From positions 1 through 23,033 of IMG/VR virus record IMGVR_UViG_3300009128_000137: a stretch of 23,033 bases of DNA. One strand, written 5' to 3'. The number at the start of each line of letters is the position of its first letter. Position 1 is the first letter of the stretch. The notes beneath the pieces were generated by a model. The model ran no database searches, was not told where the DNA came from, and worked only from the letters and a program-made list of their open reading frames with translations. A program made the position numbers and the translations under genes. This document shows, piece after piece, positions 5,262-20,236 of the stretch. The stretch comes from a virus.

Positions 5262-5280
5262 GTTTTTATCTTCCTCGTAT

Positions 5281-5288
5281 TAAATAGT
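5281..5288 (-). promoter_or_regulatory. ACTATTTA motif, candidate promoter
   Basis: The coding strand carries TACTATTTAATAC just after the terminator at 5291-5330 and 20 bases before the ATG of the 654-residue fibre gene. It is the same 8-mer as at 3253, 8943 and 19673. A promoter directly after a terminator would be a natural arrangement, but function is inferred only. Confidence 0.35.
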
Positions 5289-5290
5289 AC

Positions 5291-5330
5291 GAAAAAAAGG
5301 ATGCCCCCCTTTCGGGAGACATCCAAAAAA
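5291..5330 (-). terminator. Rho-independent terminator after the 443-residue fibre gene
   Basis: The coding strand reads GGATGTCTCCC, loop GAAA, GGGGGGCATCC, then seven T. The stem is 11 bp including two T-G wobble pairs, closed by a stable GNRA-type tetraloop and followed by a clean T tract. It sits 23-54 bases downstream of the stop of the gene at 5353-6684 and before the next fibre gene, so it separates two transcripts. This is the clearest intrinsic terminator in the window. Confidence 0.9.
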
Positions 5331-5352
5331 GAAATTGTAAAACAATCTCGGT

Positions 5353-6684
5353 TTAGTAGATTACCCACTGTCCATAGCCAGTATCACTATAGATTAGTGA
5401 AACAGCACCGTGTGGAGACTCAATAATTGCTTGTGAGAATCCATCGATTTCGTTACCATTGGCTAAAGAAGATGAGATCTTGATGAAGTTAGTGTTACTA
5501 ACTCCAGCAGCAGCTTTGACGATAACAACATCACCAGCAGAACCAGATGGTAAGACCAAGCTAGTAGAACCAGAAACTTCGTCAACAAAAACGTTTAAAC
5601 CAGTGCTAAGTGTGAAACCATCGTTGGCCGCGGCTATGTAACCGATCACCGTTGAAGTCATGCTGTCACCACCGGTGGTATCAACAGAGAAAACACCGTT
5701 AGTAGCAGTAACACCAGTACCAGCCATCGAAGCGGCTACATCGACCAGTGAAGATCTATGAACCGTACCTGAGCCAGAGTCAAAGTAAAGCATTCCGTCT
5801 TGCGCAAGTTTTGCCTCGGTCATAGCTTCTTCAGGAGCGAAGGTGCCAGAAACGTGAAGCGGAGCCGTCACAAGAACTGCGTTCTCGTTAACAACCAATC
5901 GGCTGTTGCCAAACGATGCTGCGCCCATCAAGTCAAGAGCACCAGAACCAGACATGTCACCAACAAGTGTTGGTGCAGTAACGCTTGTGAATACACCGGT
6001 CGTCGCCGAAGTAGCACCAATGGTTGTACCATCAATGGCACCGCCGTTGATATCAACATCACCGGTTGCGGAAACTGTAAAGAACCCGTTTCCAGCGGTA
6101 ACTACACCGCCAGCATGCAATGTGGTGGAAGCTGACAACGAAGTTGCCTTAACAGAAGACAGAGTAGTCTCACCGATCGTAGTGCCGTCAATTGCACCAC
6201 CGTTGATATCAACATCACCGGTTGCGGAAACTGTAAAGAAACCGTTTCCAGCGGTAACTACACCGCCAGCATGCAATGTGCTGGAAGCTGACAACGTGGT
6301 TCCGACGACAGCAGCGAAGGTACCAGCAACAGCCGAGTTGGCGCCAATAATGGTACCATCAATTGCGCCACCGTTGATATCAACATCACCGGTTGCGGAA
6401 ACTGTAAAGAAACCGTTTCCAGCGGTAACTACGCCGCCAGCATGCAATGTGCTGGAAGCTGACAACGTGGTTGCCTTAACAGAAGACTGTGTGGTGGCAC
6501 CGATTGTAGTGCCGTCAATGGCACCTCCATCGATGTTACAGTCTGCCGCAGTAACCTTGTCAGTTGTAACACTGAGTAAGGACGCAACGCCCGACGATGA
6601 AAGCGTTGACGCGGCTATCAATGCCTCCTCATAAGTTGTGGATCCGCTAAGTCGAGTCGTTCCAAATTGAAATTTATAAGCCAT
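5353..6684 (-). CDS. Fibre-like protein with tandem internal repeats
   Basis: 443 residues with low-complexity Ser/Thr/Gly/Ala composition. The N-terminal half is built from about four repeat units, each containing GGAIDGTTIG, then SVKAT.LSAS.TLHAGGVV and TAGNGFFTVSATGDVDIN, spaced 52-57 residues apart. These look like beta-helical shaft modules of a trimeric fibre. The last 80 residues form a distinct end domain (LVLPSGSAGDVVIVK, EIDGFSQAIIESPHGAVSLI, QWVIY) that resembles the C-terminus of the 6821-7609 protein (YIIKDEGG, TIDGENSLVLESPYASLSLY, KYYVY). The start has GGAGGG about 8 bases upstream; a 136-base gap precedes it and a strong terminator follows it. Probably a virion fibre or appendage subunit; exact location unknown. 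Confidence 0.75.
   Translation of the reverse strand: MAYKFQFGTTRLSGSTTYEEALIAASTLSSSGVASLLSVTTDKVTAADCNIDGGAIDGTTIGATTQSSVKATTLSASSTLHAGGVVTAGNGFFTVSATGDVDINGGAIDGTIIGANSAVAGTFAAVVGTTLSASSTLHAGGVVTAGNGFFTVSATGDVDINGGAIDGTTIGETTLSSVKATSLSASTTLHAGGVVTAGNGFFTVSATGDVDINGGAIDGTTIGATSATTGVFTSVTAPTLVGDMSGSGALDLMGAASFGNSRLVVNENAVLVTAPLHVSGTFAPEEAMTEAKLAQDGMLYFDSGSGTVHRSSLVDVAASMAGTGVTATNGVFSVDTTGGDSMTSTVIGYIAAANDGFTLSTGLNVFVDEVSGSTSLVLPSGSAGDVVIVKAAAGVSNTNFIKISSSLANGNEIDGFSQAIIESPHGAVSLIYSDTGYGQWVIY
6025..6560 (-). repeat. Tandem repeats within the 443-residue fibre gene
   Basis: The core GTTGATATC and its flanks recur at 6046, 6202 and 6373, with a diverged fourth copy (GATGTTACA) at 6532, giving periods of 156, 171 and 159 bases, all multiples of three. 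The first three copies are almost identical at the DNA level over more than 80 bases each, including silent positions, which points to recent duplication or gene conversion rather than old divergence. Confidence 0.9.
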
Positions 6685-6715
6685 TTATAAAACCCTCCAT
6701 ATAAAATTGATTTTT

Positions 6716-6777
6716 AAATGTTAAAAATGTTAAACAATGAGCAACAAGGTTTTTGCCTAAGACATTTGCCTAAAACA
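6716..6777. repeat. Two short tandem duplications in the 136-base intergenic gap
   Basis: The gap 6685-6820 holds AAATGTTAA twice in a row (6716-6724, 6725-6733) and TTTGCCTAAGACA followed by TTTGCCTAAAACA (6752-6764, 6765-6777, one mismatch). The gap also carries CTATTTA on the coding strand at 6803-6809. No strong terminator was found in it. These could be regulatory half-sites or replication-slippage remnants. Confidence 0.5.
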
Positions 6778-6820
6778 AGAACACAGGATGCCCACCGCTC
6801 ATAAATAGGTGCCCTATCAA

Positions 6821-7609
6821 TTAGTAGACATAGTACTTACTGACACCATTACAATAAAGGGACAGAGAAGCATAAGGTGATTCCAAAACTAGTGAATTTT
6901 CACCGTCGATTGTTTGAGATCCAGAAGCCAGAATTGTTATATTGTTGGTATGGGCGGCGCCGCCTTCATCTTTAATAATGTATGTATGCCCATCCGTTAA
7001 AACTGCTGCATCTGGAAGACGAAGTTCAACTTCGCCGGCGGAAGAATCCATACCAATATAGTAATCATCAACCGAAGCCGTCATCGTAGCCGTTGAAGTT
7101 TTATGATGATAAACAACCGCACCAGATATGTGTAAACGGCCGCCAACAAAGCCTGAAGCTGAAACATTTAAGCTAGCAGAGATAGCTCCGCTAACAGCAA
7201 TCTTGTGATCTGGAGCAGTGTTGGCGCCGATTGTTAAACTGCTGGTGGTATAAGCGTTTATATTGCTAAGCTGCGTGAATATGCCTCCGCCAGTACCGCC
7301 GCCGCCGCCGCTAATCCCAGTGAGTTTTGAGCCATCGCCATAAAAGGCAGACGCAGATATATTAATGCTAGCGCTAACATCACCAGTGATCGTCAGCGTA
7401 TTACCATTAAAGGTTAAATTTGACTCACCTGTAAGCTTATAGGAATCGGTACCGATCGTCGTTAAATTATAGCGATCGGGTCCAGAAGTAATCTTTAGAA
7501 CATGTTCAAGCTCTTTGCCATCACCAACGAAAGCACTAGATGAAACTTGGCCATCTGCCAATAATTGACCGGGAAGCAGTACGTTTCCCGATAAGACATT
7601 ATATCCCAT
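6821..7609 (-). CDS. Fibre/appendage-like structural protein
   Basis: 262 residues. The N-terminus MGYNVLSGNVLLPGQ is close to that of the 654-residue fibre protein. Two copies of a fibre motif follow: SSSAFVGDGKELEHV (about residue 24) and SASAFYGDGSKLTGI (about 86), both of the F.GDGS.LTGI type common in phage tail-fibre and structural proteins. A Gly-rich linker (ISGGGGGTGGG) then leads to a C-terminal beta domain (HTYIIKDEGG, TIDGENSLVLESPYASLSLY, KYYVY). GAGGG lies about 8 bases before the ATG. Likely a trimeric virion appendage; this is the best example of the paralogous family in the window. Confidence 0.72.
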   Translation of the reverse strand: MGYNVLSGNVLLPGQLLADGQVSSSAFVGDGKELEHVLKITSGPDRYNLTTIGTDSYKLTGESNLTFNGNTLTITGDVSASINISASAFYGDGSKLTGISGGGGGTGGGIFTQLSNINAYTTSSLTIGANTAPDHKIAVSGAISASLNVSASGFVGGRLHISGAVVYHHKTSTATMTASVDDYYIGMDSSAGEVELRLPDAAVLTDGHTYIIKDEGGAAHTNNITILASGSQTIDGENSLVLESPYASLSLYCNGVSKYYVY

Positions 7610-7651
7610 CTACATCAGCCCTCTAAAATAATTATACAATTACAATTATAA

Positions 7652-8443
7652 TTAGAAGACAAACCAGTTAGAGCCGTTAGAATAGATATTAATAGCAGTC
7701 ATTGTGCCTGTCATTTCATAATATGCTTGCCCATCAATGAACTCGCCGGCTGAAGCAGACACTAAAATTGCGCCCGGGGCGGTGTCGATCGGCGCTCTAG
7801 AACCGGTGAATTCATCTTTAATTGTTAATATAGCGCCAGTCATCGGCGAATACGTACCGCCAGCACTGCCAAACGGATAGCCGGCTGGGGGCGAAGAAGA
7901 CGTAGCTGAAGGAAGATAAATAACGGCCGGGTACCCGTTCTTGTCGGGAGAGCCCTTTACTCCCAGTATGTGATCCGCCATGGAGGCTGAATAATAATCA
8001 ATGGCGGCGTTGGAATTTGAGGAGAGCGACCTATAATTCATTCTAAAGCCGCCGACGTTTATTGACTGACTAGCATGAAGATTGACATTGAATGCTGTGA
8101 CTCCGCCACGTTGACCGATGTGCAGACTTCCAGTTCTAACGTGCTGATCATCATTAGTGTTACCAAATCTAGTAGAACCGCTAGCATCAATTCTGGTTAT
8201 GTCTTCAAAGTGATAACTACTAGCGGAGATTGCCCCAGAGATAAAAAATGTCCCAGTCAGGATAAGGCTGCTGGTTGTACCGCCGGCTCCGGGGACAGAA
8301 CCATCATAATTGTACATGAAGTAATTCGAGCCGGAAATGTTACCGGCCCCAGTCAAGAACATTACGGAGCCTGTGACGCCCTCAGCGTTGGCTCCGCTAG
8401 ATGTTTCATCGCAGTTTACATATGCCCAACCAAATCTTGACAT
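7652..8443 (-). CDS. Fibre/appendage-like structural protein
   Basis: 263 residues rich in Ser, Gly and Thr. It contains shaft-like phrases (FISGAISASSYHFEDI, GSLHIGQRGGV) and ends in the same type of C-terminal domain as its neighbours: GAILTIKDEFTG about 60 residues from the end, then GEFIDGQAYYEM and IYSNGSNWFVF. Unlike the others it begins MSRFGWAYVNCDETSS, so it may attach differently or act as a partner of another fibre protein. It begins 3 bases after the stop of the 154-residue protein, with GGAG 12 bases upstream of its ATG, so the two are probably translated together. Function inferred from composition and context. Confidence 0.68.
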   Translation of the reverse strand: MSRFGWAYVNCDETSSGANAEGVTGSVMFLTGAGNISGSNYFMYNYDGSVPGAGGTTSSLILTGTFFISGAISASSYHFEDITRIDASGSTRFGNTNDDQHVRTGSLHIGQRGGVTAFNVNLHASQSINVGGFRMNYRSLSSNSNAAIDYYSASMADHILGVKGSPDKNGYPAVIYLPSATSSSPPAGYPFGSAGGTYSPMTGAILTIKDEFTGSRAPIDTAPGAILVSASAGEFIDGQAYYEMTGTMTAINIYSNGSNWFVF

Positions 8444-9193: not shown

Positions 9194-9616
9194 CTATTTC
9201 CTGTTCATTTGTTTCCAGATTTGTGAAGCGCCTCCGGTGAGGGAAGAAATATCAACTCCGGAGCTACTGGGGTCTCCTAAATCAACCGAGCCGGGTGATG
9301 TGTCACGATGGGATGGTGCGGGAGTGGTACCTTCAAATAGATCCACACCATTATATGCATCAGTGCTAACAGCTTCTAATAATTTCTTTCTATGCTCTTG
9401 TAGTTTCATACGGCCCTCTTCTTGGCTTCGCTTAATTTGCAAGTCTTCATTAAATAGACGCTCATCCTGCTTCTTGTTCTCGACAACAACGTTGCCCTGC
9501 ATACCTTTGGCGACTTCTGAAACAACGTTAGACAAAACGCCCTCTTCTATAAGGACTTCGTGAATACATTCTTTCACCAAAGGTTTAATTAGTTTTTTTA
9601 AGTCAGCTTTTTTCAT
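9194..9616 (-). CDS. Small helical, probably virion-associated protein
   Basis: 140 residues. The N-terminus MKKADLKKLIKPLVKECIHE followed by VLIEEGVLSNVVSEVAKG is strongly amphipathic and helical; the middle is charged coiled-coil (QIKRSQEEGRMKLQEHRKKL), and the C-terminal third is Gly/Ser/Pro-rich and probably disordered. The N-terminal helix recalls the tag-like starts of three other proteins here and contains gp21-type sites (IHE, LIEE). It overlaps the preceding gene by ATGA (9613-9616) and leads directly into bS21, so the three are coupled. I recall similar proteins as conserved hypotheticals in marine phages; function unknown. Confidence 0.65.
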   Translation of the reverse strand: MKKADLKKLIKPLVKECIHEVLIEEGVLSNVVSEVAKGMQGNVVVENKKQDERLFNEDLQIKRSQEEGRMKLQEHRKKLLEAVSTDAYNGVDLFEGTTPAPSHRDTSPGSVDLGDPSSSGVDISSLTGGASQIWKQMNRK

Positions 9617-11547
9617 AATATCCTCTTATTAATTCCTGCGATCGTTTGCCAACGATCATATGTTTCTGCCAATTCCGAAGGATCCATTCCCGGTTCGGGC
9701 ACATCTCTGTTGCTCCGGGTGGGCTCTTTTGGTGGTCCGCCAAGATCTTTGCGTATCCATACAACGGCTTCCTTGAGCGCTTCCACGCCTGCTTTAATTA
9801 TAGGATGTGGGACATACCCAAGGACTTCCAAAACAAAATCTATATAATATTTCTTCCCGTCGTCAGTCTTGGTGTAGACAGCGATGCGGATATATTCTTC
9901 GGGAACGTGTTCATAGAGTTCCTTCACCCCGGCAACGCCTTTCGCGATTTTGGTAGCTTTGAATGCCGGGTCGGCCAATTTCATGGCTTTTGTGGTGGCC
10001 GCAAGTGCTTTTCCTGTTTTCCCAGTGGCTGCGACAGTTTTAGCTATCTTGCCTAAGCTTCCGGCTTTAGCAAATTTACCGGCCCATGGAACTAGCGCAA
10101 TTAAATCCAACAGGGCCCAACCCATTTTCTTCTGGTATAGATTTAAGCCTAGGCTGGCAAGCGTAGCACCAGTCGGTATGAGGGTTGCTTCTGCAGGAGG
10201 GAACACGCCGGCTGCGCTGATGGCGTCCAATGACGATCCTATTATCGATAATACTTTGCTTTCCTGGGCTTTCTCGTCTGTATCTTCTTCCTCGGCTTCA
10301 CCGGTCTCGGTGGGTTCGTCTGGCTCCTCTTCTCCGGGATCTTCGCCGGGCAATGTAATGGGTGTCGTCCGGTTGACCCATTCCTCTTCTTCGTCTTCGG
10401 GCGCGTCAGTCACCTCATCTTCACCCCCTTCGTCATCCCGCGGGATTTCTGGGGGGAGTTCCTCCGGTGGCAGAGCTTGGCCATAATCTGGACCTTTGCT
10501 AAATTTAACTGTGTTAAGCTTGGCCCATTTATTAAGGACTTTTTCTAAGTTCTTTTGAGCTTTGGGGTCTAACCCGAATGAATCTAATAAATCATTTAAT
10601 TTCTCAGTAGTTTCAGGGGAGAAAGTTCTTGGATCGCGTTGTGGATCTCCAATAGCCTCCAGAACTATATCGTCTTGCTCTGTTGCTTGTAGCAGCAATG
10701 ACAACAATTGCCTCTTTTGAGCGCCAGAGATGTTAACGTTCTTTAACATGTTAAGCAGCGAATCAGGATAAGAAAGACTGTTGATGCCGGCAATGATTTT
10801 ATCAAATTCTTCTGGCTCAACAGGCTCATCCGGTTCGGGTTCTGTGGCATCTTCCGGTGCGGCTTCAGGTTCTTCCGGCGCGGCTTCTGGTTCTGTGGTA
10901 GCTTCAGGTTCTTCCGGGGCCATCTCTGCCGGGACTGGTGCCACTTCTGGTTCGGGTTCCTCAAGACCAAGCATCTGTAGGTCAAAATCGCCTAAATCAA
11001 TTGTTGAAAGCTCCTCTTCATCGGATATGCCTAGGTCTGGGAACTCTAATTCTGGCACGGTTTCAACTGCCATAGGTACATCAATTTCTCGCCCAAGTTG
11101 TTGTTCGGCGCTGGCGACAGCACTGCGGACCCATAAATTTCCCATTGCTAATTCGGCTGCGGATGGTTGTCCAGACGGGTAATCCCGGGTTCCGGTGAGC
11201 ACTTGGAGTGTGGATTGACCCCACAACTCACCAAATTCTTCTGATGTGATTGGGATCGGAACTTCAGGCTGGTCTTCCCTGTAAAAGTATAGCCACTGCG
11301 GCTGATCCTGATCGGCTATGGCGAAGCGCTTCCATGCAATTAAATCATGCGCGGCGGAGGTGTCACCCGCCTTTAGGGCGGTCGCCATATCCGTGCCAAT
11401 CTGAGAGCCCCATTCAATAACATAATTTTCTACAGCGTCCTTGATCTCGCTTGGAATATTATTGGTTGTAGAACCCGGCTCAAAGTCATAGCGTGCCTCT
11501 GTCAGATATTTTTGCCACTGATTATATGTGTTCTTGTAACTACTCAC
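9613..11547 (-). CDS. Large composite protein with capsid-targeting-like N-terminus; probable internal head protein
   Basis: 644 residues. The start codon is GTG at 11547-11545 with GAGG 8 bases upstream, overlapping the gp21 stop by 8 bases. The first 20 residues (MSSYKNTYNQWQKYLTEARY) resemble the capsid-targeting sequence of T4 internal proteins (MKTYQEFIAEA); YLTE-A at 14-18 is a good gp21 cleavage site. Residues 40-160 look globular; 165-250 and 350-430 are acidic Pro/Glu linkers; 250-345 are helical. Residues 430-545 are hydrophobic and Gly/Ala/Lys-rich, including a possible membrane segment (WALLDLIALVPWAGKFAKAG), followed by repeated A.K/G.K helices. The C-terminus ends RWQTIAGINKRIL, similar to the gp22 tail. 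Lying directly after the protease, it is most likely packaged in the head and perhaps ejected with DNA; an elaborated scaffold partner is the alternative. No enzyme domain was recognised. Confidence 0.7.
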   Translation of the reverse strand: MSSYKNTYNQWQKYLTEARYDFEPGSTTNNIPSEIKDAVENYVIEWGSQIGTDMATALKAGDTSAAHDLIAWKRFAIADQDQPQWLYFYREDQPEVPIPITSEEFGELWGQSTLQVLTGTRDYPSGQPSAAELAMGNLWVRSAVASAEQQLGREIDVPMAVETVPELEFPDLGISDEEELSTIDLGDFDLQMLGLEEPEPEVAPVPAEMAPEEPEATTEPEAAPEEPEAAPEDATEPEPDEPVEPEEFDKIIAGINSLSYPDSLLNMLKNVNISGAQKRQLLSLLLQATEQDDIVLEAIGDPQRDPRTFSPETTEKLNDLLDSFGLDPKAQKNLEKVLNKWAKLNTVKFSKGPDYGQALPPEELPPEIPRDDEGGEDEVTDAPEDEEEEWVNRTTPITLPGEDPGEEEPDEPTETGEAEEEDTDEKAQESKVLSIIGSSLDAISAAGVFPPAEATLIPTGATLASLGLNLYQKKMGWALLDLIALVPWAGKFAKAGSLGKIAKTVAATGKTGKALAATTKAMKLADPAFKATKIAKGVAGVKELYEHVPEEYIRIAVYTKTDDGKKYYIDFVLEVLGYVPHPIIKAGVEALKEAVVWIRKDLGGPPKEPTRSNRDVPEPGMDPSELAETYDRWQTIAGINKRIL

Positions 11548-12145
11548 AATCCAAAACCTCGTTTAACAGTCTGTTAATACGGTCGGCTTTGGTGAATACT
11601 TGGTTGTTATAATCTTTTGCTTCTTTCATCATAAAAGCATTAGGGGTTGAGGGCTCGGAAACAAAGTCAAAGCATATTAATTGAAAATCTTCTTGAACAA
11701 CGGTCGTATCATTTGATTCGGAAACAGAACCCATGCCGCGGCTAGAGATGCCAAGCTTAACGCCACTTTCGACCAGAGATTTTAATACCTGACCTGATGG
11801 CGTGTCTAATACTTTAACTTTACCCATCACTGATTTGTCTTCCATCCAGATATCAGTTACAAGATGTGACGCATTTCTAAGGTTAATGACCGAATCATCT
11901 GGGTGATCTAATTCACCTAGGGCGCGGTTCTCTCCTACAAGTTTTTTATAGTTCTTTACTTCTCGGGCCAATACTTTATATGGATATACGCGCTGATTTC
12001 CGTTCAGTACATCGGCCTCTTGGAGTTTGCCGGTCAGCATCATGCCACCATCAGCCACATAGCGCTTCTCGTCTTCAGTCAAAAGGTCTTGGCAAACGCC
12101 ACCTTCGCAAAGTTCATAAAATTCTCTAAGTAGCTTCTGACCCAT
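11540..12145 (-). CDS. 21: Prohead core protease, T4 gp21-like
   Basis: 201 residues, close to T4 gp21 (212). It carries the family's signatures in order: GKLQEADVLNGNQRVYPYKV near residue 40 (T4: GIFMQAEVVNRNKRLYP), ALGELDHP with the catalytic-type histidine H81 (T4: ALGELNHP), and VKLGISSRGMGS with the serine pair S134/S135 (T4: PGVSSRGLGS). The last third has FDFVSEPSTPNAFM, matching the substrate-binding end of the fold. The protease is a serine enzyme of the herpesvirus-assemblin type that assembles inside the prohead, cleaves scaffold, capsid and internal proteins after (L/I)-x-E, and then degrades itself. The ATG has AGGG 9 bases upstream; 24 bases separate it from the membrane protein gene before it. 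In T4, gp22 and gp23 follow immediately; here they lie about 8.3 kb further on. Confidence 0.92.
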   Translation of the reverse strand: MGQKLLREFYELCEGGVCQDLLTEDEKRYVADGGMMLTGKLQEADVLNGNQRVYPYKVLAREVKNYKKLVGENRALGELDHPDDSVINLRNASHLVTDIWMEDKSVMGKVKVLDTPSGQVLKSLVESGVKLGISSRGMGSVSESNDTTVVQEDFQLICFDFVSEPSTPNAFMMKEAKDYNNQVFTKADRINRLLNEVLDCE

Positions 12146-12169: not shown

Positions 12170-12535
12170 CTAACTGGCTGAAGCATCCACTTGTTTGTCC
12201 AAGTGGCAGGACTGCTCATTTGCGTGTTTGTGTTCATGTTTAACTCCATTGTCTCCGAATACCATGTTCATTACATAAGATGTGCCAGAGGATAACCATC
12301 CAAGAAGAAAAAAGTTAGCTACTGTAACATCATAGCTAAATAGTTCTGTGAATGGGGAAAGCAGCATTAAAAACCACCCAACGTGAAATCCCATACACAT
12401 TGGGCAGTGAAATACTTTACCATATCCTCCGCCAAAATCTTTTGATGGCCTCCATCTCTTTAAAAGCGGAAGGTCGCTATACACCAAAATTTGTGTAAGC
12501 CCATAGGCACATAATATAAAAGTTAATAATTCCAT
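12170..12535 (-). CDS. DUF1360-like membrane protein
   Basis: 121 residues. Hydrophobic segments at about 3-18 (LLTFILCAYGLTQILVY), 50-63 and 72-92. Between the first two lies FHCPMCMGFHVGWFL, which fits the C-x-x-C-x-G-F/W-x-x-G motif of small DUF1360-type membrane proteins, known from phages and bacteria but of unknown function. The C-terminal 25 residues are His/Lys/Glu-rich (VKHEHKHANEQSCHLDK) and might bind metal. The ATG overlaps the upstream stop (TAATG at 12533-12537), so the two genes are translationally coupled. Why a membrane protein lies between portal and protease genes is unclear; T4 prohead assembly begins at the inner membrane, so a role there is possible but speculative. Confidence 0.65.
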   Translation of the reverse strand: MELLTFILCAYGLTQILVYSDLPLLKRWRPSKDFGGGYGKVFHCPMCMGFHVGWFLMLLSPFTELFSYDVTVANFFLLGWLSSGTSYVMNMVFGDNGVKHEHKHANEQSCHLDKQVDASAS

Positions 12536-13041
12536 TAGTTATCCTGTTCTGCTAAGCCGGTTTCGGCACCACTAGCCATACCGATCACATCAGCAGCCTT
12601 AAGGGCTTTACCTTTGATTAAAATTTCAAAGGCATCTTGCATAATATCAGAGCTAATATCTCCGCCTTGAGACAGTTGAAAAGCCATAAAAGCAATTGCT
12701 GCAGCCGGGGCGCCGTATGTTATAATTTTTTGGCCCAAATCTGTATCAAAGAAATTTTGAGCTTTTACGTAAGCAGTCGCACCAAGTTGATCTAACATTC
12801 CTTCTTGTAGATCCTGATCGATAAGGCTGGACATTTCTTCAAATGATTTTATCAAATCCATTATTTCAGGATCATTTGAGACAATATTAAGAAAACCTTG
12901 CAACTTATCATCGTTTGCGCGGACTAGTTCGTTACCCAGAGATTTTACTGCTTGCGGATCATTTTTGACATTTTCAAGATTTTCGTTTTCAAAAATCAAA
13001 TACGTATCCCAACGCTCCATTAACATTTTCATTTCAGACAT
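12535..13041 (-). CDS. Conserved head-region protein, possible internal protein
   Basis: 168 residues. The N-terminus MSEMKMLMERWDTYLIFENE resembles the targeting start of T4-type internal proteins (a short amphipathic helix with W..YL and a gp21-type site at IFE18). It continues as charged helices, with an Ala-rich hydrophobic segment at about residues 107-122 (YGAPAAAIAFMAFQL) that could be membrane-interacting. AGGAGC lies 8 bases before the ATG. Its place between portal and protease matches where T4 keeps the small core genes 67 and 68, but no direct similarity to either could be seen. Function unknown; a core or internal head role is inferred. Confidence 0.6.
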   Translation of the reverse strand: MSEMKMLMERWDTYLIFENENLENVKNDPQAVKSLGNELVRANDDKLQGFLNIVSNDPEIMDLIKSFEEMSSLIDQDLQEGMLDQLGATAYVKAQNFFDTDLGQKIITYGAPAAAIAFMAFQLSQGGDISSDIMQDAFEILIKGKALKAADVIGMASGAETGLAEQDN

Positions 13042-13631: not shown

Positions 13632-14445
13632 CTTCGAAAATTTCCTTTACAAGTTGTTGTGTCTTTAACACAGTCATGATGACATTTTCACTGATTGTTT
13701 CATGAGAGTAGCCTTCAAGTCGTGATAAGACTTGTTGTGTCTTTTCAGTCATTGAGGAGTCAGCCTTAATCTCTTCTATTTGTTTAGCTTTTTTCAGCTG
13801 TTCTTTTAATCTACCTATCTCTGCGTTCAAAAACACTTTTAATTCCAGAGAGTTATCAGAAAAAGATGTTATATAGCGAGATAATAAACTCTTTTGCTCC
13901 TCAAGAAGTTGGTTGTCATATTTTTCATTAAATTTATTAACAAAGGTCTTATATACAATGTTGTCAACTGGTACTTCAGTTTCATTTATTGTTGCTGTAT
14001 TACACATATCGTTGATAATCTTAGTTTCAAGAATAACTTTTTCTTTTGGAGACGAAGTATTGAACATTTTATTAATTGTAGCTAAGGCTTTATAGTTTGG
14101 TACAAAATTATTAAATACAGAAGGCGAGAGAGTCTTATTGACTACGTTTATAATCTCTGTTTGTTTGATAAATAACTCATCAGGATTGATCATTCTTTTA
14201 GCTAACGAAGCTTCTTTCAATATCTTTTCACTAATTTCTTGCTCAAGCGATTGGTTTTCATAAAGCGATCTGTAACATTCCAAATCCTTAGTCAGCAACG
14301 ATTCTGCACTAAAATGTTCTCTGATTACATCTACTGCTTTTTTGCTTCTCTCATTATCATTTTTTAAAACAGCGACAGTGGCCTCTTTAATCAGGGCCTC
14401 ATAAACAAATGCTGTATTACGTTTTTTGTTGTGCTTAGCTTTCAT
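13615..14445 (-). CDS. Conserved helical protein downstream of portal
   Basis: 276 residues from the ATG at 14445-14443. This start is preferred over an in-frame ATG 33 bases upstream because GGAG lies 8 bases before it and because it gives MKAKHNKKRNTAFVYEALIK, a start I recall in related marine phage proteins. The protein is almost entirely helical and Lys/Glu/Asn-rich, with probable coiled coils near residues 200-225 (LNAEIGRLKEQLKKAKQIEE). It overlaps the portal stop by 11 bases. No catalytic motif is visible. Its position matches the T4 core proteins gp67/gp68, yet it is longer and I cannot show homology. Confidence 0.62.
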   Translation of the reverse strand: MKAKHNKKRNTAFVYEALIKEATVAVLKNDNERSKKAVDVIREHFSAESLLTKDLECYRSLYENQSLEQEISEKILKEASLAKRMINPDELFIKQTEIINVVNKTLSPSVFNNFVPNYKALATINKMFNTSSPKEKVILETKIINDMCNTATINETEVPVDNIVYKTFVNKFNEKYDNQLLEEQKSLLSRYITSFSDNSLELKVFLNAEIGRLKEQLKKAKQIEEIKADSSMTEKTQQVLSRLEGYSHETISENVIMTVLKTQQLVKEIFEDVGHN

Positions 14446-16399
14446 CTTTTTGCTCCGTTGGCTTTTCTTTCTTATCAAGATCTTCTAAAAGAACTGTTAG
14501 TGATTTATTCATCGATAACATTTTTTGTTCTTCTTTTTGCTCACTCAATGAATAAATAGGCACTTCTTCTTCATAAATGCCTCTAGATAAAGATCTAAGT
14601 TCCGCGCCGCCGAGATTATTAGTTCGGTATGTGTTCGTTTCTGGTGTTGCTATACGTGCATAATTTCTTGTTCTGGCTCCGGCCGGCCGTGAATCTGTAC
14701 GTTGGGGGTAATAAACTTTACCTTTGGCGCCGGGAGTTAGGCGAGGCGCGTCTCTCGCTCCGGGAGGGGCTGCCAAAAGTGTAGAATCATCTTCGCCGTC
14801 GGCGCCTTCTGGCTCGGCGTCGGCTTCGCCGCCGAGATCTAAATCTCCGCCGGCGTCACCGCCAAGATCTAAATCGCCACCGCCAGTATCGCCGCCAAGA
14901 TCTAAGCCACCACCTCCGCCTGCTGCGCCGGCGGCTTGAGCCTCGGCAACGGCCTGAAGAGATGCATCCTGCTTGCGATCGTAAAACATCTCTCTCTGAC
15001 ATCTTGCAAATTCTTCGTGAGACATATTGAAAATGTTTTCGGTAACCCAGCGACGAGAGAAATAGCCCTCGGTTGCGGAGCCGGCGATATCAAACTTAGC
15101 TTTCCAGTGCTCAATCTCTTGAAGTTCCGCAATCTTAGATGGGTTGTTTAAAGAAAGTTTGAAATTAATAAGGTCATCGCCGCGGAAACCAAGAGTATAA
15201 AGATGAATGATGCCGATTTTTTCAAGCTCATGTATAACTGTCCTTTGTAATCTTTGGACTGTTCGGGCAAAGCGAATGTCTTTTTGGGCTAACGTTGTCT
15301 TGTCTTCAGTGGCGCCTTCGCCCATAGAGAGATAAGACTGTGGGACCTTTAATGCTGAAAATAATTTATCTCTTAAATATTTGATGTCATCAATTTCGGT
15401 TGTATTTGTGCCGCCGGCGATGTTCGAAATATCTGTAGCTGAGCCGGCGCGTACGGGAATGTAATAGTCTTCTTCAATTGATAAAGGATTGTAACGCAAG
15501 TCAACTCGTCCAGTGTCTTTGTCTACGATTGAGTGTCTTTTAAGTTGTGAAACAATCTTTTGCATATAGCCTTCAACATCTTGAGGCGGGATGGCGCCGA
15601 CATCAATCTTGAATACGCGCCTTTCGGAAGATCTGACAATACGATATGCCATCATAGCGTCTTCCATAAGTGTAAGTTGGCGCCAAATGCGGCGGGCGGG
15701 CTCCAGAACTGATGAGCCATAAGGGACATATTTATCGTTACCTAGAATACGAAAGTGTGCGACCTGCCAATTTTCAAAAGTCATACCAGCGGAATTCCAT
15801 TGATATTGTACATAATTAGGATTAGTTGCATCTAGCCCTTCTAGTCTTTCAACTTCCTGCAGTGGCAGCGCGATGGCTGACTGGACACCCATCTTATCAT
15901 CAATGTCAAGGTAGAGCATGAAGTCACCATATTTACACATCGTGCGGCACCAGCCAAAAAGATTATATTCAATATTCAATATATTGTGATACAAAAGATC
16001 CAATACCGCCTTAATCTCTTCGTTTGTACAGTTGATGTTGAGCATCGGGCGCAAAGCAGAAAATGTTGTCATTTCATCAGCATAGATATCTAGCGACGAA
16101 GCGATCTCGGGCATATATTCCATCTGATCAAAATCAATATATCTCTCGGCACGTCGTTGATTAGAAATTGCATTAGCGGCAATTTGGTCTAACGGATTAT
16201 AAGTCTGCTTCTTGAACTGCTGTCCAGAAGCAGTCTTGAATCTAGAGGCGTATTTGTCTAGATGCTGTCTTCTAATTTTACGTCCGGATTGCGAACGATA
16301 CGTAACTATCGGACCTGAAAAAAGCCTAGTTAGCGACTTAAATAACGATGATTGTGTGTTCGCAGGGTTTTTCCCTTTTCTCATATTTCTTGGTGCCAT
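14435..16399 (-). CDS. 20: Portal (head-tail connector) protein, T4 gp20-like
   Basis: 654 residues. The family pattern is clear: RAERYIDFDQMEYMPEIASS, LDIYADEMT (about residues 82-110), a long alpha/beta middle, and GEGATEDKTTLAQKDIRFAR, TVQRLQR (about 370), which corresponds to the T4-family EI.F..FI.RLR region. It forms the dodecameric ring at one head vertex through which DNA enters, nucleates shell assembly and docks the terminase. T4 gp20 has 524 residues; the extra length is mainly C-terminal: a Gly/Asp repeat at about 498-524 (LDLGGD three times), an acidic stretch, and a charged 100-residue tail. It lies 8 bases after the terminase stop with a weak binding site (GTGAG), suggesting coupled translation. 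Confidence 0.92.
   Translation of the reverse strand: MAPRNMRKGKNPANTQSSLFKSLTRLFSGPIVTYRSQSGRKIRRQHLDKYASRFKTASGQQFKKQTYNPLDQIAANAISNQRRAERYIDFDQMEYMPEIASSLDIYADEMTTFSALRPMLNINCTNEEIKAVLDLLYHNILNIEYNLFGWCRTMCKYGDFMLYLDIDDKMGVQSAIALPLQEVERLEGLDATNPNYVQYQWNSAGMTFENWQVAHFRILGNDKYVPYGSSVLEPARRIWRQLTLMEDAMMAYRIVRSSERRVFKIDVGAIPPQDVEGYMQKIVSQLKRHSIVDKDTGRVDLRYNPLSIEEDYYIPVRAGSATDISNIAGGTNTTEIDDIKYLRDKLFSALKVPQSYLSMGEGATEDKTTLAQKDIRFARTVQRLQRTVIHELEKIGIIHLYTLGFRGDDLINFKLSLNNPSKIAELQEIEHWKAKFDIAGSATEGYFSRRWVTENIFNMSHEEFARCQREMFYDRKQDASLQAVAEAQAAGAAGGGGGLDLGGDTGGGDLDLGGDAGGDLDLGGEADAEPEGADGEDDSTLLAAPPGARDAPRLTPGAKGKVYYPQRTDSRPAGARTRNYARIATPETNTYRTNNLGGAELRSLSRGIYEEEVPIYSLSEQKEEQKMLSMNKSLTVLLEDLDKKEKPTEQKDES
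14828..14908 (-). repeat. Short in-gene repeats encoding LDLGG(D/E) in the portal tail
   Basis: Three copies of a 20-30 base element with core CCAAGATCTAA or CGAGATCTAAA encode GLDLGGDT, DLDLGGDA and DLDLGGEA. A similar LDLGG with the same DNA core (CCAAGATCTAA) occurs in gp22 near 3069-3079. This is low-complexity sequence inside a coding region. Confidence 0.8.
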
Positions 16400-16407
16400 T
16401 TAATTTC

Positions 16408-17991
16408 TCACTTTATAATCCACATATATTCTTTGTATAAATTTTCTGCATCTGACATTTTATCCATAACTCCATCTTCTTTGTATCCAATTTGTCCCTT
16501 TATTTTTGTATCAAAACTGGTTCTTGAAGTTATTATAGCATCCACAAAAGCTTTCTTGTAGTTCAAATCTCTTTGATTTGTCTGTAATGCAGTATCACGG
16601 ACCCAACAAGCAATCGAGAGCGCCATAACTAAATCATCATTGTATCCTTTTAAAGCTTGGGGTTTTCCATTTGTCCAAATAAATGTTCTCAATTCATTTG
16701 CCAAACGCGACGAATATGTAGTAATTAGTTTGTTTCTTATAAACTCTTCTAATTTAGCAACAACCAAGGGGCGAGTTTTTGAAGATGTTGTAAACCCGGG
16801 GACCGCTGAGTTCCTGTGTTCTGCCATGTGCTGCTCAATATATTCATGAGTTGACTTAACAGAATAATAAATATTTGGGTACTCATAATCAATAAGTTTA
16901 TCTAAAACTGTATATCCGATGCTGTTGTTCTCAATGACCATCATCGCGTTCCCGAACTCCCGGCCGACTTGATTTAATATATTCGCATATAAATCGGGAG
17001 TTGGCTTGCCTTGATATTCTCCCACAACCTGCATTGTCTCTAACTTAATAATGTGAAAAGTTGAATAGTCTGCTCCATCGCCGCGAGCGACATCTGCAGT
17101 CAACAAGTAGCTGCACGAAGGATCGTGCTCTTCCCAAATCCAGAAATTACGATCAAACGCTGTTTTATATTTTGGCTCAACTATGTTGTCTGTAATCCAT
17201 TCAAGAGCATCTGGATCGATAACAGTCTCGCCGGATGTGTTGAAGTTACACTCCAACTCTTGTGCAATTTGCCTGCGTGACATATTTTTAGTTTCTTTTT
17301 TGAACCACTCTTCGTCACGTTCAGGGTGCACATCCCACATTAAAGTTGTTAATTTGAAATTATTTTCATTTGTTTCAGCGCCGACGCAAGTTTTATGGAA
17401 CCAGTTACCGACACCATTCGGGGTTGATATTGCTATACAGCGACCACCAGTTGACAACGTGGGATACAAACCAGTCCACAGATCTTCAAGACCATCAATG
17501 TGTGCAGCCTCGTCAAGAACCAGAAGAGACAGCGCTTCAGAGCGGCCGGCGTCACCAGATGTTGAGGCTGCTTTGATGGTTGAGCCATTTGACAATTCAA
17601 ACGAGGTGCGGTTATCCGTAGAGATAGAAGCGATGCGGATCCAGTCTGGTAGATTTTTCATGATGCTTTTAACTTTGCGGACAAGGTTCCCCGCGGTCTC
17701 AAATTTGGTAGCCATAACCAGAATAGATTTATCGCGGTGAAACAACATCATCCACACAATATAGCCAGCGGTTAACGTAGAGATACCTAATTGCCGGCCC
17801 TTATTGATGACGTTAAAACGATAGTCATTAAAATCGTCTAATAAATCATCTTGATAGTCAAACGTATTAAAAAGAATCAGCCCGTGCATCGGATGAGATA
17901 TACGGGCATACGTTTTAAGAAAGTACGATGGATCTTTTCCGCACTTAACTACTTCTTTTAATATTTCTTTCTTTGTTAATTTGAAACTCAT
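16408..17991 (-). CDS. 17: Terminase large subunit, T4 gp17-like
   Basis: 527 residues from the ATG at 17991, which overlaps the previous stop as ATGA; a longer in-frame reading has a basic 30-residue extension with no support. The ATPase half shows NKGRQLGIST (63-72) at the Walker A place, LLVLDEAAHID (156-166) as Walker B plus catalytic Glu, and the coupling motif AISTPNG (187-193). The nuclease half shows LTADVARGDGADYS (D300), MMVIENNS (E354) and GYNDDLVMAL (D452/D453), the acidic residues of the RNase H-like fold. The protein drives DNA into the prohead through the portal encoded next and cuts the concatemer. The usual Walker A lysine (T4 SRQLGKTT) is replaced by Ile70; K64 at the start of the loop may take over, as in some other terminases. 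No recognisable small terminase gene lies in front of it. Confidence 0.95.
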   Translation of the reverse strand: MSFKLTKKEILKEVVKCGKDPSYFLKTYARISHPMHGLILFNTFDYQDDLLDDFNDYRFNVINKGRQLGISTLTAGYIVWMMLFHRDKSILVMATKFETAGNLVRKVKSIMKNLPDWIRIASISTDNRTSFELSNGSTIKAASTSGDAGRSEALSLLVLDEAAHIDGLEDLWTGLYPTLSTGGRCIAISTPNGVGNWFHKTCVGAETNENNFKLTTLMWDVHPERDEEWFKKETKNMSRRQIAQELECNFNTSGETVIDPDALEWITDNIVEPKYKTAFDRNFWIWEEHDPSCSYLLTADVARGDGADYSTFHIIKLETMQVVGEYQGKPTPDLYANILNQVGREFGNAMMVIENNSIGYTVLDKLIDYEYPNIYYSVKSTHEYIEQHMAEHRNSAVPGFTTSSKTRPLVVAKLEEFIRNKLITTYSSRLANELRTFIWTNGKPQALKGYNDDLVMALSIACWVRDTALQTNQRDLNYKKAFVDAIITSRTSFDTKIKGQIGYKEDGVMDKMSDAENLYKEYMWIIK

Positions 17992-18698
17992 ACATTTTTC
18001 AAGGCCGCCAACACTTCTTCGCGATTGACGAGATCTCCTTCGCCGTCCAATATAATTATTTTTTCGATGCCATCTTTCCAAGCCATATCCACAAGCTGAG
18101 CATCGGTCATTTCTCCGAAGCCGTGAGGATCTAGAGCATCATATTTTTCTTCGTCACCAAAGCCGAAATGATAATCTCCGACTTCATTTAATACTTCTTG
18201 AATTATATATTTAACTTCTCTGAAGCCTATTTCGCGGCGTTGAGGTTCTATATATTCGGGAGCAAGCTTTTCAATAACGGCTGTAAATAAATCTAACATC
18301 TCTTCTGGTGGCAATTCTTGTACCAAGGCTGTGACTTGATCTTCTAAAGGTGGGCCGGCGCGATCTTGGAAACCACTAACGTGGCTCTCTGGTGCGTCGT
18401 CTGATGGAATGTCTGAGGGTCCATATCGTTCTGGCGCGTCGTCTGAGGAAATGTTATCAGCGGGGAAGGGCATCGTCTGTGCTGCTCTGTCGGCATTTGG
18501 ATCCGCTGGAGCACGGCCATATCTTACTTTCTTGCTGTGTCCGTAGTCATCTCCGAGCCAAGCCGGTTTGGGCCCTTGCTTCCGGATCCATGCCAACATT
18601 TCCTCTGCCTGCTGTGGGCTCAATTCTTCTCCAAGAGTCTCTTCTTTTATGTACTCTTCTGCGATAATTCTCTTTAATTGCGATTTTGTAAAATTCAT
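17988..18698 (-). CDS. N-terminally tagged protein before terminase; unrecognised
   Basis: 236 residues. The first 15 (MNFTKSQLKRIIAEE) match a tag shared with two neighbouring proteins and carry a gp21-type site IAE at residue 14. A Pro/Asp-rich linker follows, with a near repeat SSDDAPERYGPSD and PSDDAPESHVS at about 85-110. Then comes a helical part (PPEEMLDLFTAVIEKLAPEY) and a C-terminal domain (AQLVDMAWKDGIEKIIILDG, EGDLVNREEVLAALKNV) that looks compact. It overlaps both neighbours by ATGA. By position it could be the small terminase, but it lacks any recognisable DNA-binding motif; the tag argues for a packaged virion protein instead. Confidence 0.6.
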   Translation of the reverse strand: MNFTKSQLKRIIAEEYIKEETLGEELSPQQAEEMLAWIRKQGPKPAWLGDDYGHSKKVRYGRAPADPNADRAAQTMPFPADNISSDDAPERYGPSDIPSDDAPESHVSGFQDRAGPPLEDQVTALVQELPPEEMLDLFTAVIEKLAPEYIEPQRREIGFREVKYIIQEVLNEVGDYHFGFGDEEKYDALDPHGFGEMTDAQLVDMAWKDGIEKIIILDGEGDLVNREEVLAALKNV

Positions 18699-19093
18699 AT
18701 TCTACCCCCCATACAGTCTTTAATTTTAATAAGGTTTTCAATCACATCAATTTCATTTTGTGTTTCTAATTTTTCTTTATCTTCTTTTGAATCTAAATCT
18801 TGATGAAGAATGTTAAGCGTGTTCTGAAGTTCTTCGCACGACGCTGAGTCATAACCGTCCTCATTGAGTTTAGCTGCAAGACTGGAGGTTGGTCGGTAAG
18901 CACGGCCCATGGTTTTCTGACCAGCGCCGATGGAAACAGGATCGCCACCTATGATAGCGGCAGACAAAAAATCAAGACTAACATCCAGATTTTCTATTTT
19001 GTCAGTCAACGCCCAAATAGCTTTCATTAGAGCAGCATCATTTTGAATCTCTTCTTTGATGATCTGCTTAAGTCGGGATTTGCTGATTTTCAC
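18695..19093 (-). CDS. N-terminally tagged small protein (GTG start)
   Basis: 132 residues if translation begins at GTG 19093-19091. Evidence for this start: it lies 1 base after the upstream stop, has AAAGGAA about 8 bases before it, and yields MKISKSRLKQIIKEEIQ, matching the tag of the proteins at 17988-18698 and 19643-20236. ATG codons further upstream would create a 26-base or longer overlap and a basic extension unlike the family. The rest is helical (LMKAIWALTDKIENLDVSLD; LQNTLNILHQDLDSKEDKEK) with no known motif. It is located where a small terminase often sits (two genes before TerL) and its size is right, but no helix-turn-helix could be identified. IKE at residue 14 is a possible gp21 site. 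Confidence 0.62.
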   Translation of the reverse strand: MKISKSRLKQIIKEEIQNDAALMKAIWALTDKIENLDVSLDFLSAAIIGGDPVSIGAGQKTMGRAYRPTSSLAAKLNEDGYDSASCEELQNTLNILHQDLDSKEDKEKLETQNEIDVIENLIKIKDCMGGRI

Positions 19094-19094
19094 T

Positions 19095-19643
19095 TTACGA
19101 TTCCTTTTTTCTAGAATCATTCTCCGGGCGTTTTCCGCCTTTACCATTCCACCCACCTTGATCGAGGAACTTTTTAAAACTATCTTCAAGGCGATCTTCA
19201 GATGGTTGGCTGTAAGCCATGTTTTCATCTAAACCACCAATTTTGTAGTGCATCTTGGCTGTCACCCAGCTTCTTACTCTGGAAGAGTTTTCGACGCGAA
19301 CATCAACTTCGCCCTCTTTGGTAAGGGTAACTCCGGTGCCTGTGATCTTCTTATATTCTTTCTTCAGAAACTTAACAACATCCGCAAGGCGTTGCTCAAT
19401 CTCTTGCTCAAAACCATTAGCATATACTTCACGAAGCTGTACTTCGGAGTGGTAACCTAGACAAAGCATGTTTCCATAAAAACTAACATTAAATCCGTCC
19501 ATCACCCTTTTGTCAATCAGTGGACGCCCTTCATCGCGCTGGAGCCCGGGCTTCAAGGCTTCTCCGTTTTCGTCCAATGCTCCATCATAAGCATTAGCTG
19601 CGGCCTGCGATAAGCCTTGTATAATTTCGTAAACTGTTGCCAT
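19095..19643 (-). CDS. Conserved hypothetical protein upstream of terminase
   Basis: 182 residues. It begins MATVYEIIQGLSQAAANAYD, a start I recall in conserved hypothetical proteins of other marine phages, followed by GRPLIDKRVMDGFNVSFYGN and alternating beta and helix segments (VQLREVYANGFEQEIEQRLA, VVKFLKKEYKKITG). The C-terminal 40 residues are polar with DSFKKFLDQGGWNGKGGK. There is GGAG 8 bases before the ATG, and TAATG overlap with the upstream stop. A candidate ACTATTTA promoter lies 30 bases ahead. No enzymatic motif is visible. The position between tagged proteins and terminase suggests a virion or packaging role. Confidence 0.6.
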   Translation of the reverse strand: MATVYEIIQGLSQAAANAYDGALDENGEALKPGLQRDEGRPLIDKRVMDGFNVSFYGNMLCLGYHSEVQLREVYANGFEQEIEQRLADVVKFLKKEYKKITGTGVTLTKEGEVDVRVENSSRVRSWVTAKMHYKIGGLDENMAYSQPSEDRLEDSFKKFLDQGGWNGKGGKRPENDSRKKES

Positions 19644-20236
19644 TACTGGTCTCCTCTAACGTTCTTGTAATATAAATAGTGTTTAACTGAAGAAAGGTAA
19701 TCAGAGGCTTTGGTGATTTTAGCTTGTACCCACGCATCCAATTCATCACCATCTTGAATCATTTGTTCTAACTCTGACGCATATTCGGCTGCTCTATATA
19801 ATTGTGACTTGGCCATTCTACCTTCGTCGTGTTCATCGCTGTGTGTCATTTGCGGTGGTGGTTCTGCAGAAGGCAACGGGTCGCCACAACCCTCTGTTGT
19901 GACCGTTTGCTGCGTTTCAGGTTCATTTTCAGCGCTAGAACCGCCGGGGTGCATTCTCTTATCGAGCAAATTAAAAACAATTTGGATTACGTTTCTCTTA
20001 GTGTTTAAATCCATACCCTCTTCAGCAGCTAATTGAAGTATATATTCGTAAACCTTAGTTGCGATATTTCGTTCTTGCGGGCTAATCTCACCAGCAGTAT
20101 CCTTCGTAGCTGAGCGGGTTGCTGCTGTGGCTTTTCCAACCCCAGCACTAGCGCGATCTTTCTTAACATCCAAAGGACTCTGTTCTTCAAGTGCCTCTAA
20201 AATTGCCCTCTTGATATCATTTTTCGTTATCTTCAT
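19643..20236 (-). CDS. N-terminally tagged protein with conserved C-terminal helical module
   Basis: 197 residues. It begins with the tag MKITKNDIKRAILEALEEQ (gp21-type site ILE-A at 12-15). Residues 45-95 form a helical domain (QERNIATKVYEYILQLAAEE, DLNTKRNVIQIVFNLLDKRM). After a disordered linker, residues 140-190 form a second module: GRMAKSQLYRAAEYASELEQ, MIQDGDELDAWVQAKITKAS, DYLSSVKHYLYY. I recall this last module as frequent in marine phage proteins of unknown function, often next to tags of this kind. The ATG lies 20 bases inside the end of the zinc-ribbon gene, with AGGA about 10 bases upstream. Likely a virion-associated protein; not proven. Confidence 0.62.
   Translation of the reverse strand: MKITKNDIKRAILEALEEQSPLDVKKDRASAGVGKATAATRSATKDTAGEISPQERNIATKVYEYILQLAAEEGMDLNTKRNVIQIVFNLLDKRMHPGGSSAENEPETQQTVTTEGCGDPLPSAEPPPQMTHSDEHDEGRMAKSQLYRAAEYASELEQMIQDGDELDAWVQAKITKASDYLSSVKHYLYYKNVRGDQ
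19673..19680 (-). promoter_or_regulatory. ACTATTTA motif, candidate promoter before the terminase cluster
   Basis: The coding strand reads CACTATTTATATTACAAG, ending 30 bases before the ATG at 19643 and lying in the 3' end of the upstream gene. It matches the elements before gp22 and the fibre module in sequence and spacing. Function inferred. Confidence 0.3.

Follow-up and report, generated by a model that had tools for sequence, protein, structure and literature searches.

Why should three neighbouring phage genes with unrelated bodies begin with similar stretches of fifteen residues, each carrying a glutamate at position 14? The question is raised by a 23,033-base fragment from an IMG/VR virus record (hereafter the window, meaning the whole of this stretch), whose minus strand encodes the head module of a T4-like phage and, beside it, the three genes. 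A first-pass annotation made from the sequence alone had proposed that the shared start is an alternative capsid-targeting sequence (CTS) cut by the prohead protease gp21. Our comparisons support that proposal. We put at about 0.83 the probability that the tag is a CTS working like that of the T4 internal proteins, by docking on the scaffolding core, entering the prohead and being cut by gp21 after Glu14. We favour this reading because Glu14 is conserved, the tag is linked to gp21, tags are exchanged between homologous proteins, and the conserved residues coincide with the functional positions of the T4 CTS.

In T4, the internal proteins IPII and IPIII start MKTYQEFIAE/A (here and below, a slash marks the cut or predicted cut), and the T4 literature places the gp21 cleavage site after L/I-X-E. 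In the T4 CTS, the main residues for targeting are 4 and 7 and those for processing 8 and 10; Asp at residue 10 stops processing and leaves targeting intact (PMC9026906).

Three neighbouring proteins share a start but not a body

The three genes lie on the minus strand directly upstream of gp17, the terminase large subunit (16408-17985, minus; Pfam PF03237, E 4.3e-11), and in each the start ends in Ile/Leu-x-Glu with the glutamate at residue 14. Tag 1, MNFTKSQLKRIIAE/E, spans residues 1-15 (18654-18698, minus) of a 236-residue protein (protein 1; 17988-18698, minus) that consists of two modules with an internal tag-like segment between them. Its predicted cut follows Glu14, which is kept in orthologues even when the tag drifts to MDVSRAELYRLIIEE. 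Tag 2, MKISKSRLKQIIKE/E, likewise residues 1-15 (19049-19093, minus), belongs to a 132-residue protein (protein 2; 18695-19093, minus) with a GTG start codon preceded by an AAGGAA ribosome site, and M1, K2, K5, K9 and E14 are invariant among its 11 orthologues. Tag 3, MKITKNDIKRAILE/A, also residues 1-15 (20192-20236, minus), opens a 197-residue protein (protein 3; 19643-20236, minus). Homologues of protein 3 carry an MKITK tag, a second form that we call W-type, or a shorter form, MKAEELRELIRE.

The positions of the three starts and the unrelatedness of the bodies behind them are as first annotated, and none of the three proteins has a significant match in Pfam or PHROG. Two statements needed trimming. 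The starts are indeed shared, but with 7-9 of 15 residues identical they are similar rather than near-identical. A Glu at exactly residue 14 holds as a rule for the MKITK tag and is not universal, related forms having it at 12 or 17. In the shorter MKAEELRELIRE the Glu is residue 12, so that the core keeps its spacing but not its distance from the start.

The tag is a large phage-specific family

The consensus form of the tag is MKITKxxLKxIIxE. When the bare tag was searched against phage records by tblastn it gave no match, low-complexity filtering being the likely cause, and we therefore used DNA patterns and a profile instead. A pattern encoding M-K-I-[ST]-K-x-x-L-[KR]-x-I-I, with residue 13 onward unconstrained, found more than 120 stretches in IMG/VR; a reversed-pattern control found only 4 across the whole collection. 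The profile passed its threshold at 3 of 625 candidate starts in the window. It recovered 111 tagged starts in 78 gp21-relative loci (1.03 Mb, fetched solely for gp21), and none among the 24,099 starts of 120 random viral loci (1.06 Mb). The family of tags is large and specific to phages; its carriers are uncultured T4-like phages, mostly ocean-derived. We found no published description of the tag or of the W-type tag in the open-access literature, where the tag sequence itself drew unrelated hits only and work on capsid targeting did not mention it.

Within one genome, synonymous codons vary at invariant residues (Leu8 is CTT, CTC, TTA, TTG or CTA), and the codons of invariant residues also differ between genomes. 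Such free variation indicates that selection acts on the protein. It contradicts an explanation at the level of DNA or translation, in which genes would share starts because of a strong initiation region, or through copying at a recombination hot spot. AT-rich starts of the type ATG AAA ATT ACA AAA do favour initiation, and tandem clusters of tagged genes exist; however, besides the codon variety, the conservation of Ile11, Ile12 and Glu14 lies beyond initiation effects. We reject the translation-start explanation and give the DNA-level account as a whole next to no weight.

Homologous proteins exchange the tag for a second one

Searches with bodies alone, their starts removed, revealed that homologous bodies may bear the W-type tag, MKLIMENWRKFLTE and its variants. 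In six body families the MKITK tag of one phage is replaced in another by the W-type tag, and Glu14 is present in both. The clearest swap sets MKITKQRLKEIIKE/ELEEALAKDIRVEKLPNGFYRF (L139) against MKLILENWNNFVNE/EGELEEAMAKNIKAEKLPNGFYRF (L077) on bodies that are 76% identical, and a single body occurs with three tags: MKITKLQLRRIIAE/A (L090), MKKLLTEWRKYLSE/I (L340) and MKHLRQYIRQILLE/S (L362). In swapped pairs the bodies restart directly after residue 14. The gp21 loci contain 33 W-type starts and the random loci 2, from one family. Among homologues without the MKITK form, 39 of 54 begin with a W-type tag or contain the general core (hydrophobic-x-x-hydrophobic-aliphatic-x-Glu), compared with 1-4% of control open reading frames. 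The two tags agree in their length to Glu14 (for W-type tags of the MK-form), in hydrophobic residues at 8, 11 and 12, in the genomes that carry them and in the homologous bodies to which they are attached. They differ at residues 8 and 11, which are aromatic in the W-type tag (W and F/Y), making it much closer to the T4 CTS.

This exchange bears on whether the tagged proteins might be one diverged paralogue family whose N-terminus evolves slowest. Some tagged modules do recur and recombine: in L167, L171 and L193 the modules of proteins 2 and 3 are fused behind one tag, which suggests that both work in the same place. Against common descent, the bodies of 466 sampled tagged proteins of at least 60 residues belong to 316 families whose folds are unrelated (GNAT, pentapeptide repeat, helical), and homologous bodies switch tags while remaining up to 76% identical. 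Since tag exchange contradicts it, we reject simple paralogy, and consider descent from one such family very improbable.

The conserved residues match the functional positions of the T4 CTS

When the tags are set in register at the Glu, T4 residues Y4, F7, I8 and E10 correspond to residues 8, 11, 12 and 14 of both tags (L/W, I/F/Y, I/L and E). These four T4 functional positions are exactly the ones conserved in both tag types. The MKITK tag is too short for a significant alignment with the T4 CTS, and the DNA pattern has 0 matches in T4; as far as the sequences indicate, the link between the two runs through the exchanged W-type tag. In common with the T4 CTS, the tag is a short N-terminal label on unrelated small proteins, ends in [LI]xE and occurs in genomes that encode gp21. 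Unlike the T4 CTS, it is four residues longer, strongly basic and devoid of aromatic residues, and often has a second LxE near residue 22. It is also borne by far more genes, 27 in G013 (289 kb) and 8 in G028 (155 kb), whereas T4 has three IP genes. On this comparison the first-pass proposal stands and can be broadened, the MKITK tag being one form of a general CTS, its sequence different from that of T4 but its spacing and critical residues the same. A side observation on these genomes is that tagged genes may form tandem runs on one strand, of up to about 15 (G013 at 52-60 kb, L064, L015), reminiscent of an arsenal island.

Glutamate 14 is conserved like a cleavage residue

In 168 non-redundant tagged proteins, taken from the matches listed by the pattern scan, IxE occupies residues 12-14 in 161, residue 14 is Glu in 96% and residue 15 is Glu in 80%; beyond these residues, weak conservation extends to residue 22, and information is at background level by residue 23. 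Among tags in gp21 loci chosen by residues 1-12 alone, Glu14 is present in 85 of 86 (99%, compared with 94% for Glu15). Position 13 varies freely. Another [LI]xE, with its Glu at residues 18-24, is found in 51% of tags, against 5-8% further along.

These patterns might also fit a helix for docking, by which proteins are anchored to the core or inner shell; it would be kept, or lost only through a cut at the second LxE near residue 22. The weak conservation up to residue 22 and the enrichment of a second [LI]xE there would agree with such an anchor; the Glu-Glu pair at 14-15 may simply be a feature of the helix, and one tag family has Asp14, which in T4 means targeting without processing. What makes an uncut anchor unlikely is that Glu14 is tighter than Glu15, residue 13 is free and bodies restart after 14, all of which fit a P1 residue better than a helix contact. 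In addition, the gp23 of this clade carries the same kind of motif as the tag, LLRE/A or LLRE/S. In the window, the propeptide of gp23, the major capsid protein (3-1892, minus, the gene extending beyond the window edge), contains the predicted gp21 site LLRE/A at 1710-1724 (minus), and 22 of 24 relatives have [LIV][LIV]xE/[ASQ] near residue 60 of gp23.

Tags occur with gp21 and near head genes

The window encodes a gp21-type prohead protease (Peptidase_S77; 11540-12145, minus), as annotated in the first pass. It matches PF03420 (E 2.5e-30, 105.9 bits against a cut-off of 27), phrog_207 (E 3e-54) and PDB 5jbl (E 8e-19), and keeps the active-site His and Ser segments (GELDHP and SRGMGS, compared with GELNHP and SRGLGS in T4 gp21). 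Its own N-terminus contains LLRE-8, comparable to LIE-9 in T4 gp21.

An S77 protease was detected in 36 of 50 tag-bearing records of at least 30 kb and in 2 of 28 random records of that size (p 1.6e-8). Thirteen of the 14 S77-negative tag records also lack a T4 portal, which marks them as fragments without the head module. One large record, G049 (146.7 kb, home of the W-tagged swap partner L340), has tags and no S77. We considered it as a counter-example and set it aside: it has no T4 portal, neither the terminase nor the capsid protein of the window finds a match in it, and we treat it as what it may be, a fragment. A search of 84,980 prokaryotic species genomes met the DNA pattern on seven contigs, each of them part of a metagenome-assembled genome, and the assemblies of the two most tag-rich contain an S77 protease, as expected for binned phage DNA. 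These two contigs, NHDW01000006.1 (L334, L337, L338) and PBIO01000025.1 (L336), from the bins Methylococcaceae TMED69 and Halobacteriovorax, are probably large phages misfiled as bacterial DNA. The first-pass annotation had tied its proposal to the tag being confined to genomes with gp21 and not equally common elsewhere, and as far as sequence can tell both expectations are borne out, with almost no tags in cellular genomes, none in the random viral loci and a single exception (G010) among the records.

All 86 tags selected by residues 1-12 lie on the strand of gp21, in two clusters. The first, of 27 tags, is 225-1003 bp upstream of gp21, which is the slot of the T4 core proteins gp67 and gp68; the second is 5.6-9.9 kb upstream of gp21, before the terminase gene, where the tags of the window also lie. 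This arrangement counts against the idea that the tag recruits proteins to some other phage partner (a replication site, the membrane, a host factor or the transcription machinery) and that its link to gp21 reflects only the clade. Tag phages are a subset of S77 phages, there are S77 isolates that lack the tag, and in large genomes many tagged genes are far from the head genes, all of which would suit another partner. Yet one cluster adjoins gp21 in the gp67/gp68 slot, the tag swaps with the W-type, which agrees with the T4 CTS at each of the functional residues, and a scan of 139 of the longest tagged proteins found no replication or tail proteins. We judge recruitment to another partner distinctly improbable, more so than the uncut anchor.

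Evidence that weighs against a capsid-targeting role

Several observations nevertheless count against reading the tag as a CTS. Neither tag was found in T4, KVP40, P-SSM2 or HTVC008M, nor in the closest isolates, Flavobacterium phage immuto and Microcystis phage Mel-JY01; given these S77 isolates without tags, the association between tag and gp21 is partly one of clade. For records of at least 80 kb, S77 is present in 23 of 27 tagged and 2 of 6 random ones (p 0.02). G010 is one real exception, with a T4-type portal, one tag and no detectable S77. Rare tags lack Glu14, namely three with Lys14 (in G013) and the one Asp14 family. The hydrophobic moment of the tag is not above that of shuffled sequences, and a helical stretch with Glu-Glu would suit other roles too. 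The starts had been described as amphipathic helices; the amphipathic part is not upheld, while the helix agrees with an AlphaFold2 prediction for protein 2, in which residues 5-18 are modelled as helical (predicted local distance difference test score about 83) within an all-helical model of low confidence.

G010 (L017, L349) is a 125-kb record that also encodes a terminase; S77 is absent by both Pfam and PHROG, and the genes that follow the portal differ from the usual head genes. The Asp14 family starts MKITKSRLKEIIADVLREE and comprises L005, L044, L079 and L106. By the T4 rule its members would be packaged uncut, targeted but without cleavage, and the family is a natural test case.

A model for loading and release

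Docking, packaging and ejection, like the cut after Glu14, are steps that we infer for a capsid-targeting tag. During assembly of the scaffolding core, residues 1-14, probably helical, would dock on a core protein through the hydrophobic residues 8 and 11, and this docking would carry many unrelated small proteins into the prohead. Activated gp21 would then cut after Glu14, reading an aliphatic residue at 12, any residue at 13 and Glu at 14, and often also at the second [LI]xE around residues 21-22. The mature protein would be freed inside the head and would probably enter the host together with the ejected DNA.

The internal segment of protein 1, GFREVKYIIQE/VLNE (residues 158-172; 18183-18227, minus), lies between its two modules and may be a further site of this kind. 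In relatives of protein 1, a segment GF..ELM.LIxE precedes the C-terminal module and aligns column by column with the tag, and in L183 and L197 that module is a separate gene of 84-85 residues with an MKITK-type start, MKFSKLYLKQIIKEE or MKISTARLKQIIKEE, at the aligned position. The simplest reading of these ten sequences is that gp21 would cut the longer protein 1 at the internal segment into two mature pieces.

Among the 139 scanned proteins, Pfam matched two to pentapeptide repeats, one to a GNAT acetyltransferase and others to families of unknown function. A GNAT-like body is found with either tag, and in the PDB its model, of modest confidence, matches acetyltransferases best; an enzyme packaged in the head would have a counterpart in T4 Alt. 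One may tentatively extend the CTS reading to a general cargo-loading system, with an interchangeable label of at least two forms on dozens of proteins per phage, enzymes included, and multi-module precursors cut by gp21, so that a mixture of effectors would be delivered with the DNA; we hold this to be possible, at somewhat short of an even chance.

Comparable systems and significance

Head-protein propeptides of SPN3US gp53/gp54 (MANFVKSKLARESVE) and phiKZ gp93 (SLE-13) are cut after Glu by a gp21-related protease (PMC5694885), and in SPN3US several cuts fall inside one propeptide. They resemble the tag in being a short common N-terminal stretch cut by a protease after Glu. They differ in having A/S-x-E, a diverged protease family, long extra propeptides and two paralogues only; the tag motif is IxE, the protease is S77 proper, and a search of phiKZ found neither tag. 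The DarA-type internal defence proteins of phage P1 are, by description, also packaged in the head and act in the new host (PMC9024508, PMC12810830), but that head is not T4-type.

The T4 internal proteins act against restriction enzymes, and many T-even ip genes have been recognised via their start sequence (PMC12373910). A recognisable CTS would turn metagenomes of uncultured T4-like phages into lists of likely injected proteins. The candidate cargo comprises hundreds of families that are nearly unannotated, many of which may serve in anti-defence or host takeover. T4 and the tag phages can be united in one working model of the CTS, namely a hydrophobic residue at -6, a hydrophobic residue at -3, an aliphatic residue at -2 and Glu at 0, and the tags would offer a new set of labels for putting foreign proteins into phage heads.

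Other genes of the window

Two further window proteins have W-type starts. A 644-residue protein (9613-11547, minus) opens with VSSYKNTYNQWQKYLTE/AR (11494-11547, minus), which resembles YQEFIAE/AR of T4; it has neither a Pfam nor a PHROG match, and in many relatives a long W-tagged protein likewise follows gp21. The protein lies directly downstream of gp21 and has an acidic middle part rich in Pro and Glu and, at about residues 460-540, a hydrophobic stretch of Gly and Ala. Between the portal and gp21, in the gp67/gp68 slot, the protein at 12535-13041 (minus) starts MSEMKMLMERWDTYLIFE (12985-13041, minus), with the Glu off register by one residue; its relatives start MSEMKVIMENWEGFITE and MSEMKLIMESWNSFLIE.

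The portal gene, gp20, is of T4 type (14435-16399, minus; Pfam PF07230, E 4.8e-77), and the product of 1914-3221, which occupies the position of gp22, has no significant Pfam or PHROG match. Adjoining the gp21 block, the protein at 9194-9616 (minus) starts MKKADLKKLIKPLVKECIHEVLIEEG and is another possible core protein, not scored as tagged. The genes at 3297-8443 and 5353-6684 (both minus) encode paralogues resembling tail fibres, and the module HAGGVVTAGNGFFTVSATGDVDINGGAIDG occurs several times within the latter.

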